Assembly (NCBI GenBank): GCA_025058595.1
Contig: JANXEK010000011.1
Coordinates: 1 to 40,186, forward strand
Direction: 5' to 3'
Length of the DNA: 40,186 nt
Origin: Candidatus Bathyarchaeota archaeon
GTDB lineage: Archaea > Thermoproteota > CALKCG01 > B24 > DRYS01
How positions within the stretch are numbered: position 1 is the stretch's first letter; the number at the start of each line of letters is the position of its first letter. Shown here one piece after another: positions 7,364 to 17,915 of the stretch. Under the pieces are notes generated by a model, which did not search any database, was not told where the DNA came from, and saw only the letters and a program-made list of their open reading frames with translations. The translations under genes and the position numbers were made by a program.

Positions 7364-7720
7364 CTACGTCTTCTTTTCGACCGGCCTTTTAAACTCGAAT
7401 ATGAGTTTGGATTTATCTGTAGATGCATATTCATATTCGTTCGTGAGGCTTATCGCGTTTACAGGGCAACTATCTGCACATTGACCGCAGAATGTACACA
7501 TGTAGAGATGTACCTTAAACTCTGCAGTTCTTCCTCTTCCTATCATCTCTATAGCTCCCGAAGGGCAATCTCTAGCACAAAGACCGCATCCGGTGCATCT
7601 AGTCATATCATACTCTATTCGTCCGCGGAATCCTTTAGGAGTTTCCCTCCTCTCGAATGGGTATAGTAGCGTGAAAGGTTTCTTAAACGCATGCTTCAAT
7701 AGCTCGGGTTCAAACGACAT
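7364..7720 (-). CDS. 2x[4Fe-4S] ferredoxin subunit of group 4 [NiFe] hydrogenase (HycF/NuoI-like)
   Basis: This small electron-transfer subunit has two [4Fe-4S] motifs: Cys42, 45, 48 and 52 (CTGCGLCARDCP) and Cys75, 78, 81 and 85 (CTFCGQCADSCP). This is the NuoI/HycF/EchF pattern. The 118-residue length fits the short hydrogenase version. Its first codons overlap the end of the large-subunit gene by 11 bases, so it is the third gene of a translationally coupled set. It should pass electrons between an external donor and the proximal cluster of the small subunit. No transmembrane segment is seen. Confidence 0.92.
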   Translation of the reverse strand: MSFEPELLKHAFKKPFTLLYPFERRETPKGFRGRIEYDMTRCTGCGLCARDCPSGAIEMIGRGRTAEFKVHLYMCTFCGQCADSCPVNAISLTNEYEYASTDKSKLIFEFKRPVEKKT

Positions 7721-9434
7721 TCAATCCGCCTCCAAACCTATCGATATACTCTATAGGCTTCGATATAGATCCTTTCTCCCTAAGCTTCCTATAAGCTCTA
7801 AGATCCTCCAAGCTCCACGTCCAAACTAAACCTTTAGATTCATCTATAAACTCCATCCTATCCTCACATGCCATACATGGATCTATAGCCGCGAAGACTA
7901 TAGGTATATCCGCTACGTTGCACCCTTCAAGCATTTTAGCTACGAACGGTATGTTAGCTAAGGTTGGGGTTCTAACTTTATACCTCTCCAGCTGTTCTCC
8001 ACCGCTACCTTTAAGATAATGTACTAGCTCCCCTCTAGGAGCTTCGATTCTAGCGATAGCTTCAACCTGTGGGACTCTCCTAGGAGCTTTAACCCTGTAA
8101 TCTCCGCTCGGCATATGCTCTAAAGCATACCTGACGATACCTGCGCTTTCAAGTATCTCTTTCGCTCTAACTATGAAGGTGCCAGCTACATCGCAGTTAT
8201 CGACGACTACCATCTCGAAAGGTATCTCACCGTAGGCTTCGTATGGGTCATCCTTACGTATATCCTTCCTCACCTTAAACGCTCTAGCCGTAGGGCCTAC
8301 AGCACATAGAGTTAGAGCATCTACAGTAGATGCTTTCCCCACCCCTACTGTTCTACGAGTGAAGCTTGGATCCCTCGATAATAGATCCATATACAGCTTT
8401 GCTCTACCCTCTACGTAATCCATAGTCTTAATTATCCTATCCTTTAGATCGTCAGGTATATCCCTCCTAACCCCTCCGATTACGTTTATAGAGTATGTAA
8501 CTCTATTACCGCTTATAGCTTCGAGTATATCCAGGACATATTCTCTATCGCGCCATGTATACATCAATACTGTATCGAAGCCTACTTCATGCCCGGCTAC
8601 ACCCATCCAGAGCATATGGCTATGTATTCTGTTAAGCTCGTTCATAACAACCCTTATGTACCTAGCTCTCTCAGGGATATCTAGATCTAAAGCGGATTCA
8701 ACCGCTAGGACGTAGCATTGGGTATGGGCCACGCTACAGATACCACATATACGTTCAGTAAGTATCAAATTCTGTATGTATGTTTGATTCTCCATAGCCT
8801 TCTCTATACCTCTATGATTATATCCTATCCTAGCTTTCACCTTAACTATATACTCGCCTTCGACTACGAACCTTAATCCTATAGGCTCCTTTAAAGCTGG
8901 ATGCTGGGGGCCTATAGGTATATATACTGCTCCCCTACCTTCTTCAACTTCTATCTGCGGAGCTCCGACCTCGTGTTCGATTATAATCTTCTTAACATCA
9001 TCGACCTTGTATACCTTCCTCAGAGGATGGAAACCCTCAGGCCAGCCGTCAGGTAATACGATGGGCTTCGGATACGGGTTACCTTCGAATGATACTCCAA
9101 ATAGATCTCTAACCTCGCCCTCATATAGTACCGCTCCAGGTATTATATCTGTTATACTTGGAAGTTTAGGATTATCGTAAGGGATATCTACTCTAACCGT
9201 GATGAGAGAACCCATACGATCTAGATGATATAATACTTCTAACCCTCTACCGGTATCTAAGCCTGTTATAGTCGATATATGCGTATATCCTTGAGATACT
9301 AACATGTTTACAGCATCTTTAACTATGCTTTTATCGATCTTCACGTAAATTCTCTTAGGTTTGATCGATCCATATTCAATGACCTTATCTCCAAGTTTCT
9401 CTTTTAGGAGATCGACTTCGATCGGTATGTCCAT
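7710..9434 (-). CDS. Group 4 [NiFe] hydrogenase large subunit, NuoC-NuoD-type fusion (HycE-like)
   Basis: A 574-residue fusion. Residues 1 to about 145 are a 30-kDa NuoC-like domain (VLYEGEVRDLFGVSFEGNPY, then PLRK). The rest is the catalytic NuoD-like domain. Both nickel-binding motifs are intact: ERICGIC with Cys230 and Cys233, and DPCMAC with Cys520 and Cys523. That makes it a real [NiFe] hydrogenase rather than a complex I subunit, in which these cysteines are lost. The fusion is as in HycE/HyfG of formate hydrogenlyase. The last residues lie beyond DPCMAC, so removal of a C-terminal tail by a protease is possible. It follows the small-subunit gene by two bases. No membrane subunits or hyp maturation genes are nearby. 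Confidence 0.95.
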   Translation of the reverse strand: MDIPIEVDLLKEKLGDKVIEYGSIKPKRIYVKIDKSIVKDAVNMLVSQGYTHISTITGLDTGRGLEVLYHLDRMGSLITVRVDIPYDNPKLPSITDIIPGAVLYEGEVRDLFGVSFEGNPYPKPIVLPDGWPEGFHPLRKVYKVDDVKKIIIEHEVGAPQIEVEEGRGAVYIPIGPQHPALKEPIGLRFVVEGEYIVKVKARIGYNHRGIEKAMENQTYIQNLILTERICGICSVAHTQCYVLAVESALDLDIPERARYIRVVMNELNRIHSHMLWMGVAGHEVGFDTVLMYTWRDREYVLDILEAISGNRVTYSINVIGGVRRDIPDDLKDRIIKTMDYVEGRAKLYMDLLSRDPSFTRRTVGVGKASTVDALTLCAVGPTARAFKVRKDIRKDDPYEAYGEIPFEMVVVDNCDVAGTFIVRAKEILESAGIVRYALEHMPSGDYRVKAPRRVPQVEAIARIEAPRGELVHYLKGSGGEQLERYKVRTPTLANIPFVAKMLEGCNVADIPIVFAAIDPCMACEDRMEFIDESKGLVWTWSLEDLRAYRKLREKGSISKPIEYIDRFGGGLNVV

Positions 9435-9436
9435 AG

Positions 9437-9931
9437 CTATTCTCCTCTAGCTATCTTATCTACAAGCTGAGCTATACCGTATATTATGGCTTCCGGTTTA
9501 GGTGGGCATCCAGGTATATACAAGTCTACAGGTATCACTTTATCGACCCCACCGATTACGCTATAGCAGTTCCTGAAAACCCCGCCTGAACATGCACATT
9601 GACCTACCGCTACTACGAATTTAGGTTCAGGAGTCTGATCGTATATACGTCTCACACGCTCCTTCATCTGCACCGTTATAGGGCCGGTTACGACTATAAC
9701 ATCCGCATGTCTAGGGCTTCCCCTGAGAAGTATTCCGAACCTTTCAACATCGTATCTAGGAGTTAAAGCTGCAACTAACTCTATATCACATCCGTTACAT
9801 CCACCGGTATTCAGATGGAGTATCCATGGTGATTTAGCTCTAGCCCACCTAACTATACGCTCTGATACAGACAATTCTAGACGCAAACCATAGTAGGATC
9901 TATTGGATAGATAAACGCTTAATCCTAACAA
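9437..9931 (-). CDS. Group 4 [NiFe] hydrogenase small subunit (NuoB/HycG-like)
   Basis: This is the electron-transfer small subunit. It carries one proximal [4Fe-4S] cluster bound by Cys45 and Cys48 (NTGGCNGCDIE), Cys112 (VGQCACSGG) and Cys142 (IPGCPPKPEAI). This is the short NuoB form without the extra clusters of other hydrogenases. It is the first gene of the three-gene operon. The TTG at 9931 is the longest start. Homologues usually begin closer to the ARAKSPWILHLNTGGC segment, so the in-frame TTG giving MSVSERIVRW may be the real start. An AT-rich stretch at 9934-9943 could be its TATA box. It docks on the large subunit next door. Confidence 0.94.
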   Translation of the reverse strand: MLGLSVYLSNRSYYGLRLELSVSERIVRWARAKSPWILHLNTGGCNGCDIELVAALTPRYDVERFGILLRGSPRHADVIVVTGPITVQMKERVRRIYDQTPEPKFVVAVGQCACSGGVFRNCYSVIGGVDKVIPVDLYIPGCPPKPEAIIYGIAQLVDKIARGE

Positions 9932-11180: not shown

Positions 11181-12681
<1,501 letters not shown>

Positions 12682-12857
12682 AAAATCTTCTACCGCTAGT
12701 TTCCCTCCCTCTATAGATAACCTTCGACGCTTACACTTAGATGCAGTCTAGAAGCTCGACGCTTCTAGGCGAAGGGCTGAGCGGACCCGTTATTCATCGA
12801 TCCGCTGTGAGGCTACGTATAGGCTTACCTAGCGCATAATAGCCGCCGATCTAGAGT
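12682..12857 (+). other. 16S-23S internal transcribed spacer without tRNA
   Basis: About 176 bases. No tRNA is present: there is no T-loop GTTCRAATC and no cloverleaf. It holds the 3' strand of the 16S processing helix (12686-12710), a hairpin CTAGAAGC/GCTTCTAG (12748-12768) capped on an outer CCTTCG/CGAAGG stem (12721-12775), a second hairpin AGCGGA/TCCGCT (12780-12806), and the 5' strand of the 23S processing helix (12809-12846). Lack of a spacer tRNA is common in Thermoproteota, whereas many Euryarchaeota have tRNA-Ala here. Confidence 0.85.
12809..12846 (+). other. 23S rRNA processing helix with bulge-helix-bulge, 5' strand
   Basis: Positions 12809-12832 pair with 15955-15979 in a 24-bp helix with one bulged base. 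Next come a three-base bulge (AAA, 15952-15954) on the 3' side, a central CGCAT/ATGCG helix, a three-base bulge (AAT, 12838-12840) on the 5' side, and an inner AGCCGC/GCGGCT helix. This is the motif cut by the archaeal splicing endonuclease. The central helix is five pairs by my reading; four is canonical. Confidence 0.85.
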
Positions 12858-15930
<3,073 letters not shown>

Positions 15931-15939
15931 AAAAGGATT

Positions 15940-15980
15940 GGCGGCTATGCGAAACTAGGGTAAGCCTATACGTAGCCTCC
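15940..15980 (+). other. 23S rRNA processing helix, 3' strand
   Basis: This pairs with 12809-12846 as described there: GCGGCT (15941-15946), ATGCG (15947-15951), bulge AAA, then CTAGGG and the long outer strand to 15979. Cutting in the two bulges would release pre-23S and could leave a ligated spacer circle. Confidence 0.85.
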
Positions 15981-16021
15981 CTACAAGATTCTCAAAGATC
16001 TCACCGTAAGGCTTATCTCAG

Positions 16022-16057
16022 AGCCTACCCAGCCAATATATATTGGCTGGGTAGGCT
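16022..16057. repeat. Perfect 36-bp palindrome over the RNase P RNA 5' end
   Basis: The two 18-base arms are exact reverse complements and meet at the centre of AATATATATT. Each arm contains the nine-base TACCCAGCC or GGCTGGGTA. The right arm is also the 5' strand of RNase P helix P1, so a third copy of the left-arm sequence lies at 16350-16358. It is not a normal terminator because no T-run follows. Confidence 0.9.
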
Positions 16058-16360
16058 GGCGGATGGGTTTCCGGCCGATAGATTATGAGGCTGGAGGAAA
16101 CTCCTCCATGCAGACGGCGCTACGCCGCGGCGACGCGGAGGGCGAAAGCCCTGGCTCCGGTACAGAAAAGGAACCTGCCCTAGAGGTATGGGTATGAAGC
16201 TGGTGAAGCGGACGACTCTAGGATGCAGGGTGAAACTACCGCCCCGTAGGCATCAAGGCCGTATAAAGGCCTATGAGCTGCCGTCCGAGGCCTAGGTAGG
16301 CCGCATCAGTCGGATCCCATCTAGAACAAAAGGAGGGTTACGGCCAGCATACCCAGCCAT
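16041..16360 (+). ncRNA. rnpB: RNase P RNA, archaeal type A-like
   Basis: This is the catalytic RNA that removes tRNA 5' leaders. Helix P1 pairs GGCTGGGTA (16045-16053) with TACCCAGCC (16350-16358). P2 pairs GCTGGC (16055-16060) with GCCAGC (16343-16348). P4 pairs CCTCC (16103-16107) with GGAGG (16332-16336), and the flanking GGAGGAAAC (CR I) and TAGAACAAAAGG (CR V) are in their usual places. The conserved CAGGGTGAAAC segment lies at 16226-16236. A weak TATA-like GCTTATCT at 16010-16017 could drive it from about 16040; otherwise it is read through from 23S, whose processing stem ends at 15979. The ends are approximate. Confidence 0.9.
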
Positions 16361-16566
16361 AGCTAAGTATATTCCATCGTATACGATCATATATTGTCTT
16401 ATCCTTTTGAGCTGAAGAGCCCGTTCGTTACAAGGAATATCGGATTAGTATAACAAGTAAGTAGGAATGGTGTTCGAAGCCGATTCGATTCCATGAGCTG
16501 TCTACTCATCTATGCACACCTTTCGCTTCATAGCCTACATATTTTATGAGTTATACACTCATATAT
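16361..16566. other. Gap with no gene seen
   Basis: About 200 AT-rich bases between RNase P RNA and the nickel module. No tRNA, 5S or convincing ORF is seen. The right end has several TATA-like stretches (ATTTTATG, TTATAC, ATATATAT between 16540 and 16568) that probably hold the promoter of the gene at 16587. Confidence 0.6.
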
Positions 16567-16597
16567 ATGTGCACCTAAAGCTATAAATGGTGCACAT
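16567..16597. promoter_or_regulatory. Candidate NikR operator over the transporter start
   Basis: ATGTGCACC, 13 bases, then GGTGCACAT: a perfect 9-bp inverted repeat. Arm centres are 22 bases apart. This is the same spacing as the known E. coli NikR site, which has 6-bp arms and a 16-base gap. It abuts the ATATATAT stretch and covers the ATG at 16587. A NikR gene lies 0.9 kb away. The half-site sequence differs from the E. coli one, so NikR binding is an inference. Confidence 0.6.
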
Positions 16598-17120
16598 AAT
16601 GGTTTCTAGAACTCTAAGAGTTTCGATAGTAGCGGTATCCTCACCTCTATGGGCTCTACTCAACGCCTACGTAGGTCCGCTGGGGTTTCAGCTATTCAAC
16701 CTACCGATACTATGCGATCTCTCATCATACCTACCGTTGATAGTTGCTTCAGGTTTAGCCCGTATACCTGGAACAGCTATCTCCGTATCCCTCGTAGGCT
16801 CGCTTATACTCCTACTACTGAGACCAGGTGCTTTCCATATATTCGGGTTCGTAGCCTCATCGATATTATTCGAAGTTCTAGCCTTCACTGTACGCTACAG
16901 GTTTACCGGTAGATTTCTAAACATCACCGTAGCTTGCATAGCTACGATAGCTTCAGCCTACCTAGCCGGGGTATTGATAGGTATAGTGTTCATGGGTAGA
17001 AGTTTAGAGTGGGCTCTAGGATACTGGGGGCCTCTCCACGCTTCAGGAGGAATACTAGCACTCGTAGTAGGTCTACCCACTCTGAAGATTTTAGAGAAAG
17101 CTCTAAGGATCGAAACGTGA
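16587..17120 (+). CDS. Small multi-pass membrane protein, possible nickel transporter S component
   Basis: A 177-residue hydrophobic protein with about five or six membrane helices (SIVAVSSPLWALLNAYVGPLG, then LPLIVASGLARIPG, SLVGSLILLLLRPG, and so on). Size and helix pattern resemble ECF-type substrate-binding S components. Known nickel components of the CbiM/NikM type start with MHIPEG, which is absent here. The start could be ATG 16587 or ATG 16599; the candidate operator overlaps the first. The FmdE-like gene follows after six bases, and NikR lies beyond it in the opposite direction. A nickel role is inferred from this context only. No energising ATPase is present. Confidence 0.6.
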   Translation: MVHIMVSRTLRVSIVAVSSPLWALLNAYVGPLGFQLFNLPILCDLSSYLPLIVASGLARIPGTAISVSLVGSLILLLLRPGAFHIFGFVASSILFEVLAFTVRYRFTGRFLNITVACIATIASAYLAGVLIGIVFMGRSLEWALGYWGPLHASGGILALVVGLPTLKILEKALRIET

Positions 17121-17126
17121 TAAGGT

Positions 17127-17525
17127 TTGACCGATCTAAATCTTCTGATGTCCAGAGCTGTAAAGGTTCACGGACATAGAGGGCCCTTCCTAGCTTTAGG
17201 TATTAGAGCTTCTATAGAAGCTTCGAGGAGGCTTGGAGGGATAGATCTATGCATAGTATCGTGCCCACAGGTTAAACCCTACTTATGCATCCTGGATGGC
17301 ATTAGAACGATCCTCCCAGATACGATCGTAGAGGTAAGAGAATCGAGTAGTGGTCTCAAGATAATGTTTAGATCGGATAAAAGTGTACTATCGCTATCTG
17401 TTAGAAAGGAGATCCTAGAAAGGTATCTAGGTAGATCCTGGGATATACTACCTATACTTGCAGATGAGGTTCTATCCATGGGGTTCCACGATCTATTCGA
17501 TGAGGAATCAATCTATGGAAGCTAG
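17127..17525 (+). CDS. FmdE-like domain protein
   Basis: A 132-residue protein whose N-terminus (KVHGHRGPFLALGIRASIEA) matches the core of the FmdE family, first described in formylmethanofuran dehydrogenase operons. Typical members read HGHLCPG, with a metal-binding Cys; here that position is Gly (HGHRGPF). Other cysteines (CIVSCPQVKPYLC) remain. The listed TTG start at 17127 has little room for a ribosome site; the in-frame ATG near 17149 would give a more usual N-terminus. It is co-directional with the membrane protein and overlaps the convergent NikR end by 18 bases. The function is unknown. Metal handling is plausible. Confidence 0.7.
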   Translation: MTDLNLLMSRAVKVHGHRGPFLALGIRASIEASRRLGGIDLCIVSCPQVKPYLCILDGIRTILPDTIVEVRESSSGLKIMFRSDKSVLSLSVRKEILERYLGRSWDILPILADEVLSMGFHDLFDEESIYGS

Positions 17526-17915
17526 TATTACGAGCTTAATATTCTCTAAATCCCTGAGGTTTCTAAGCTTAGATACATATTCATCGATCTTTCCCGCAGC
17601 TCCTTTCACGAATACCGTCTCCAAGCATATATCCCTGGTTAAATGTATATGGAATGTCGATACGATTAGATCCATATACTCATGCCCTATACTTCTAAGC
17701 TCCTCCTCAAGCCTGGCAGATCCATCTATATAGATGTATGCTACCAACCCTGCGATAACTCTACCCGAATCTAGACGCCATACATTCTCGGATATGAAGT
17801 ATCTTATAGCTTCAGCTACGGCGTGGCTTCTACTTTTATATCCTAGCCTCCTGGATGTTCTTTCAAACTCTTTAGCTAACTCATCTGGAAGGGCTACACC
17901 GAACTTCACTGTCAA
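17508..17915 (-). CDS. nikR: NikR nickel-responsive regulator
   Basis: A 135-residue regulator with a ribbon-helix-helix N-terminus (VKFGVALPDELAKEFERTSRRLGYKSRSHAVAEAIRYF) and an ACT-like nickel-sensing C-terminus. The four high-affinity nickel ligands are His78, His89, His91 and Cys97. Their spacing of +11, +13 and +19 is identical to His76, His87, His89 and Cys95 of E. coli NikR. The DNA-binding strand and nickel site are thus intact. NikR represses nickel uptake when nickel is bound. The likely target is the inverted repeat at 16567-16597. A palindrome at 17925-17946, just upstream of its start, could be its own control site. The ATG at 17915 gives the standard length. Confidence 0.95.
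   Translation of the reverse strand: MTVKFGVALPDELAKEFERTSRRLGYKSRSHAVAEAIRYFISENVWRLDSGRVIAGLVAYIYIDGSARLEEELRSIGHEYMDLIVSTFHIHLTRDICLETVFVKGAAGKIDEYVSKLRNLRDLENIKLVILASID

Follow-up and report, generated by a model that had tools for sequence, protein, structure and literature searches.

A predicted NikR-controlled operon for a putative nickel importer and an FmdE-like protein in uncultured Thermoproteota

In 2009, a survey recognized only three types of nickel/cobalt transporters in archaea, with CbtX additionally predicted to transport cobalt (PMC2667541). In delta-proteobacteria, GTGTTAC-[N13/14]-GTAACAC serves as the NikR signal for nickel-transport operons (PMC545781). A core-domain FmdE protein was found to bind mixed zinc/nickel via His15, His17, Cys19, and Cys55, and most genes of its family (PF02663) adjoin metal transporters (PMC2954224).

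Many archaea of the phylum Thermoproteota need nickel for hydrogenases. We analyzed a stretch of 40,186 nucleotides from a Candidatus Bathyarchaeota archaeon (hereafter, the window), in which a gene for a small membrane protein (MP) and an FmdE-like gene face a nikR gene (Table 1); the MP module is a testable candidate for the missing importer of such archaea. On balance, we favor the reading that MP represents a new S-component-like family of nickel importers that is not recognizably related to CbiM/NikM, has its own Cys-Asp/His site and an FmdE-type acceptor, and is, for many uncultured Thermoproteota, the principal importer under NikR control, and that the specificities of NikR and its operator were switched together in the genus of the window.

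Table 1 Features of the window.
Feature	Position	Strand	Basis
Group-4 [NiFe]-hydrogenase genes (ferredoxin-like, large subunit, small subunit)	7364..9931	-	PF00374, PF00346, PF00329, PF01058
TATA-like stretch CATATATATG	16560..16569	+	sequence; directly upstream of the operator, touching it; presumptive
Predicted NikR operator TATGTGCACC-N13-GGTGCACATA	16566-16598	none	inverted repeat; conservation in sister and relatives
MP, 173-aa membrane protein, putative ECF S-component-like nickel importer	16599..17120	+	homology-set start, remote profile matches
FmdE-like putative metal-binding protein (PF02663)	17127..17525	+	profile match; 6 bp after MP, same operon
NikR	17508..17915	-	PF08753 and RHH_1; convergent with the MP-fmdE operon

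The operon, its regulator, and the inverted repeat

The product of nikR matched PF08753 (E = 3.5e-19) and RHH_1 (PF01402; 2.3e-4), both above the Pfam cut-off, and its best PDB match was P. horikoshii NikR (2bj1; 6.5e-22). Like the NikR proteins of P. horikoshii and E. coli (2bj1 and 1q5v), it combines RHH and NikR_C domains, and alignments placed H78, H89, H91, and C97 in the spacing of the E. coli nickel ligands (H76, H87, H89, and C95), which bears out an earlier reading of the sequence alone (the sequence-only reading) that all four ligands are exactly spaced. Its scores fell under the NCBIfam NikR cut-offs (e.g. 93.4 versus 111 bits) and, therefore, we regard it as a divergent member. This was the sole NikR match found in the window genome (G000). 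The nikR gene overlaps the end of the FmdE-like gene tail to tail, and starts about 1.3 kb from the operator. Just upstream of the operon, 16S rRNA, 23S rRNA, and RNase P RNA genes follow one another on the plus strand (11181-16352; Rfam); it may be unusual for RNase P RNA to lie 120 bp downstream of 23S rRNA.

The exact inverted repeat with a 13-nt spacer described in the sequence-only reading was found again, with perfect arms of 10 nt (16566-16575 and 16589-16598), one more than previously given. When 9-nt arms are taken, the centre-to-centre distance is 22 bp, the same as that of E. coli GTATGA-N16-TCATAC, as had been noted. The core, GTGCACC-N13-GGTGCAC, occupies 16569-16595. The repeat had been thought to cover the start of MP; however, homology sets this start at ATG 16599, so that the repeat abuts the start codon, and it is the ATG at 16587 that falls inside the repeat. 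In the whole 1.45-Mb genome, this was the sole such site at up to three mismatches, no second copy being found. Degenerate one-mismatch matches in the window and sister genomes were read as scattered chance matches.

By itself, the repeat is only modestly significant, because dinucleotide shuffling of the local 241 bp produced a perfect 10-nt-arm repeat with a spacer of 8-20 in 14 of 3000 trials. In the sister genome (Bathyarchaeota isolate JZ_bin_32; JAGTQC010000002, locus L004), the arms TGTGCACCTA and TAGGTGCACA were kept exactly at the same place and most of the spacer had diverged, which is the pattern of a protein-binding site. This comparison of sequences is strong evidence for an operator, and it gives the conservation in relatives that the sequence-only reading had proposed as a check.

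NikR boxes upstream of MP in related archaea

A search of 398 genomes of the phylum with a two-sequence MP profile yielded MP homologues in about 50 genomes (approximately 1 in 8). Within the class of the host, only the sister genome had MP besides the window; thus, the module is scattered over many families. Among 49 MP loci analyzed, the window included, FmdE was found in the neighborhood of 31, and NikR within about 6 kb of MP in 24, being the immediate divergent neighbor in 16. At six loci (L080-L083, L095, and L099), feoA, feoB, and a DtxR-like regulator were judged by eye to be near MP, which seems to sit in wider metal-uptake islands.

Within 170 bp upstream of MP, GTRTTAC-N13/14-GTAAYAC was present at no more than two mismatches in 28 of 48 loci, whereas dinucleotide shuffles gave an expectation of 0.13. 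When either arm orientation was accepted, with one mismatch at most and the arms 13-14 bp apart, the box was present at 34 of 48 loci versus 0.05 expected. Nearly all boxes lay 33-60 bp before MP, and most had an A/T-rich TATA-like stretch just upstream (about 5-15 nt before the box). By its sequence, the box upstream of MP in most relatives is the published GTGTTAC-[N13/14]-GTAACAC NikR motif (PMC545781).

At 16 loci, the box lies in an intergenic region common to divergent nikR and MP, which would also fit nikR autoregulation, or a site of another regulator, with MP as an unrelated bystander. We consider this highly improbable. With a spacer of 15 also allowed, a near-perfect box preceded MP at 35 loci, 17 of which had no NikR within about 6 kb; hence, the box goes with MP and not only with nikR, and these 17 loci rule it out as a control element of nikR only. 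Moreover, nikR of the window is convergent with its start far from the box, and elsewhere the same box precedes cbiM and an unlinked fmdE.

Specifically, the box preceded cbiM/nikM and downstream transporter genes in two genomes (G390, L145; G188, L151), cbiM in another (G351, L147), cbiM beside a second nikR in G304 (L146), and the unlinked fmdE in G224 (L148), whose MP locus is without fmdE. In G387 and G280 (L074 and L075), the gene order was nikR, the box (GTAACAC-N14-GTGTTAC), cbiM, a small nikN-like gene, MP, and fmdE; such one-box operons indicate that MP may occur with a classical nickel ECF transporter gene as well as without one. With these boxes before canonical nickel genes, the data set contains its own positive controls, which link MP and FmdE to nickel. 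The sequence-only reading had also suggested looking for the site before nickel genes of relatives, and it was found there, before nikM/cbiM as well as before MP at the orthologous place. Given that nikM/cbiM and an unlinked fmdE follow the same box and that cbiM-MP-fmdE operons exist, we conclude with high confidence that MP-fmdE is a NikR-controlled nickel operon.

Helicobacter NikR can activate as well as repress. Such activation would be compatible with MP exporting nickel, for which there was nothing direct. Export is, in our judgment, very unlikely: the box is placed for repression, downstream of the TATA-like element and ahead of the gene, and nikM/cbiM, which encode importers, have it too and would be turned off at the same time as MP.

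In the window and sister genomes, GTGCACC-N13-GGTGCAC was found at the orthologous place, its spacer being within the standard 13/14. No standard GTGTTAC-type box was found near MP in either, nor anywhere in the two genomes at up to one mismatch with N14. The size and symmetry are those of the delta-proteobacterial NikR box (PMC545781), but the half-site is GTGCACC instead of GTGTTAC, and this form was seen only in the genus of the window. The N-terminal DNA-contact strand of NikR in the window and sister genomes is VKFGVALP, whereas relatives including order-mates have VRFSVTVP, VRVGVTFP, and similar strands, and the P. horikoshii and E. coli proteins have VR[FV]S[VI][TS][LF]P. The residues that differ presumably align with Arg3 and Thr7 of the E. 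coli protein, both of which contact bases. In one order-mate, a near-standard box was found near nikR. Since the NikR strand is changed and the order-mate box is near-standard, we read the GTGCACC half-site as a derived, lineage-specific variant of the known motif, not as an independent motif. The half-site, which the sequence-only reading had described as different from the E. coli one and as possibly new for archaea, is on this reading a variant of GTGTTAC-[N13/14]-GTAACAC and not wholly new. That both the box and the contact strand are changed in this genus suggests co-evolution, and the genus would offer a natural example in which a regulator and the site it recognizes have changed in concert.

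The NikR beside MP in G347 (L109:6277-6690) has R, Q, Y, and M in place of the ligands H, H, H, and C. The MP gene there keeps a near-perfect NikR box despite this ligand-less neighbor, and we counted the case against the favored reading.

MP as a candidate nickel importer

Profile searches gave no Pfam match for the MP of the window, and MP falls outside all Pfam and NCBIfam families. Neither its sequence nor its profile matched a PDB entry, and a structure model based on the window and sister sequences only was too poor to use (pLDDT 45). In the literature reachable to us, which included few subscription papers, we found no published description of the family. MP had been described from its sequence as a transporter not of the CbiM/NikM type, and this agreed with the absence of PF01891 among the Pfam matches of 32 MP members. 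Homology to CbiM was not significant in a profile comparison (probability 5.8%). Taken together with its predicted regulation, the sequences suggest that MP is probably a nickel importer of a family absent from Pfam and NCBIfam.

A comparison with ECF S-component profiles, also proposed at the outset, gave a mixed outcome. Remote matches were obtained for about half of the members, namely weak matches to the FolT family TIGR04518 in 16 of 32 (best 2.8e-4) and matches to MptD/Trep_Strep (PF09605) in 13 of 32 (best 1.5e-4), but these were below the curated cut-offs, and the MP of the window itself matched an S-component profile with E = 0.67. MP resembles FolT (TIGR04518) and MptD/Trep_Strep (PF09605 and TIGR02185) in length and in being hydrophobic throughout. 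FolT carries a vitamin, whereas MP is under predicted NikR control. From these likenesses, we lean toward MP being of the S-component type.

The ECF part of this assignment has a rival that is less likely but deserves attention, namely that MP is a small stand-alone nickel permease unrelated to ECF transporters. This would be in line with the remoteness of the ECF similarity and with the finding that no EcfA or EcfT gene consistently adjoined MP across 49 loci. On the other hand, EcfT (PF02361) was present in all 40 MP genomes tested, the window genome having two matches, with EcfT encoded away from MP, and the S-component matches extend to about half of the MP members.

The need of the host for nickel is apparent from its hydrogenases. 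The large subunit encoded at 7710-9434 keeps RICGICS and DPCMAC, the nickel Cys pairs, and another contig encodes a further [NiFe] large subunit in which both pairs are present. The group-4 large subunit is a fused NuoC/NuoD-like protein with both nickel Cys pairs kept. Of the two importer types searched for, CbiM was not detected in the window or sister genome (the window genome being about 92% complete), and NicO was found in none of 40 MP genomes tested, the host included. With two [NiFe] hydrogenases to supply and neither CbiM nor NicO detected, the host most likely takes up nickel through MP.

Across the phylum, full-length CbiM was missing in 30 of 50 MP genomes, among them that of the window; it was present in 20 of 50, compared with 97 of 348 other genomes (p = 0.10). 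Replacement of CbiM by MP would have been evident from an anti-correlation of the two, but none was seen phylum-wide. PF00374 matches occurred in 48 of 50 MP genomes versus 220 of 348 others, in a comparison uncorrected for ancestry and with a profile that also takes complex I subunits.

The co-occurrence with CbiM in 20 of 50 genomes means that MP would be an addition to a nickel importer in some hosts, not a replacement. This, the shared operon with cbiM in two genomes, and the remote matches to FolT (folate) and MptD/Trep_Strep families but not to CbiM would suit a NikR-regulated S-component for a nickel chelate or for another cofactor needed in step with nickel. We regard this as rather unlikely, because the box upstream of MP is a nickel box, 30 of 50 MP genomes are without full-length CbiM, including the present host with its two [NiFe] hydrogenases, and the invariant Cys-Asp and His of MP suit a metal.

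These residues belong to an invariant set that includes P36, C39, D40, G83, F84, H147, G150, and G151. Compared with NikMNQO/CbiMNQO (PF01891), MP is of similar size, has the same NikR box upstream in these archaea, and sometimes shares an operon with it (L074 and L075). In contrast, MP is without the N-terminal MHIPDG and without dedicated Q/O genes adjoining it, and its candidate ligands are Cys-Asp and a late His.

The FmdE-like protein, the proposed pathway, and other box-associated genes

The sequence-only reading had placed an FmdE-like gene between MP and nikR, and its product indeed matched PF02663 (E = 6.4e-5; 23.5 bits versus a gathering score of 22.9). All 22 relatives matched this profile at E ≤ 0.01. 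H15, H17, C54, and D57 are invariant in the family, whereas the FmdE metal site, FHGHxC plus Cys55, is incomplete: Cys19 is replaced by Gly in 22 of 22 sequences (HGHxGP). The protein thus resembles Desulfitobacterium FmdE (2glz), which was bound to Zn/Ni, in keeping the two His and the second Cys, in consisting of the core domain only, and in being encoded beside a transporter gene; it differs in having Gly for the third ligand, Cys19, in lacking an fmd operon, and in its predicted control by NikR. On the simplest reading, the FmdE-like protein would be a cytoplasmic nickel acceptor, and the module would give part of this conserved family a likely nickel-handling role.

We think it likely that the locus is a nickel-uptake operon under NikR repression, in which MP imports Ni(II) and the FmdE-like protein handles the metal. 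When nickel is sufficient in the cytoplasm, Ni-NikR would occupy the repeat, which separates the TATA-like element from the start codon, and block transcription of MP-fmdE; when nickel is scarce, MP and fmdE would be expressed. MP would then bring in Ni(II), probably as an S-component docking on a shared EcfT/EcfA module, and Cys39-Asp40 and His147 may serve as its ligands for the metal. The FmdE-like protein (HGHxGP...C) may hold the metal in the cytoplasm or pass it toward [NiFe]-hydrogenase maturation.

Two tiny membrane proteins of about 100 and 115 aa are encoded next to NikR boxes in five genomes (L142:2971-3637, L143:5404-6077, L144:5634-6380, L149:5812-6477, and L152:6448-7201), in two cases beside nikR as well. 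They carry the motifs LW.G and DH / EHxxHGExVPxPPF and belong to no Pfam family, and they are possibly another nickel transport or handling pair.
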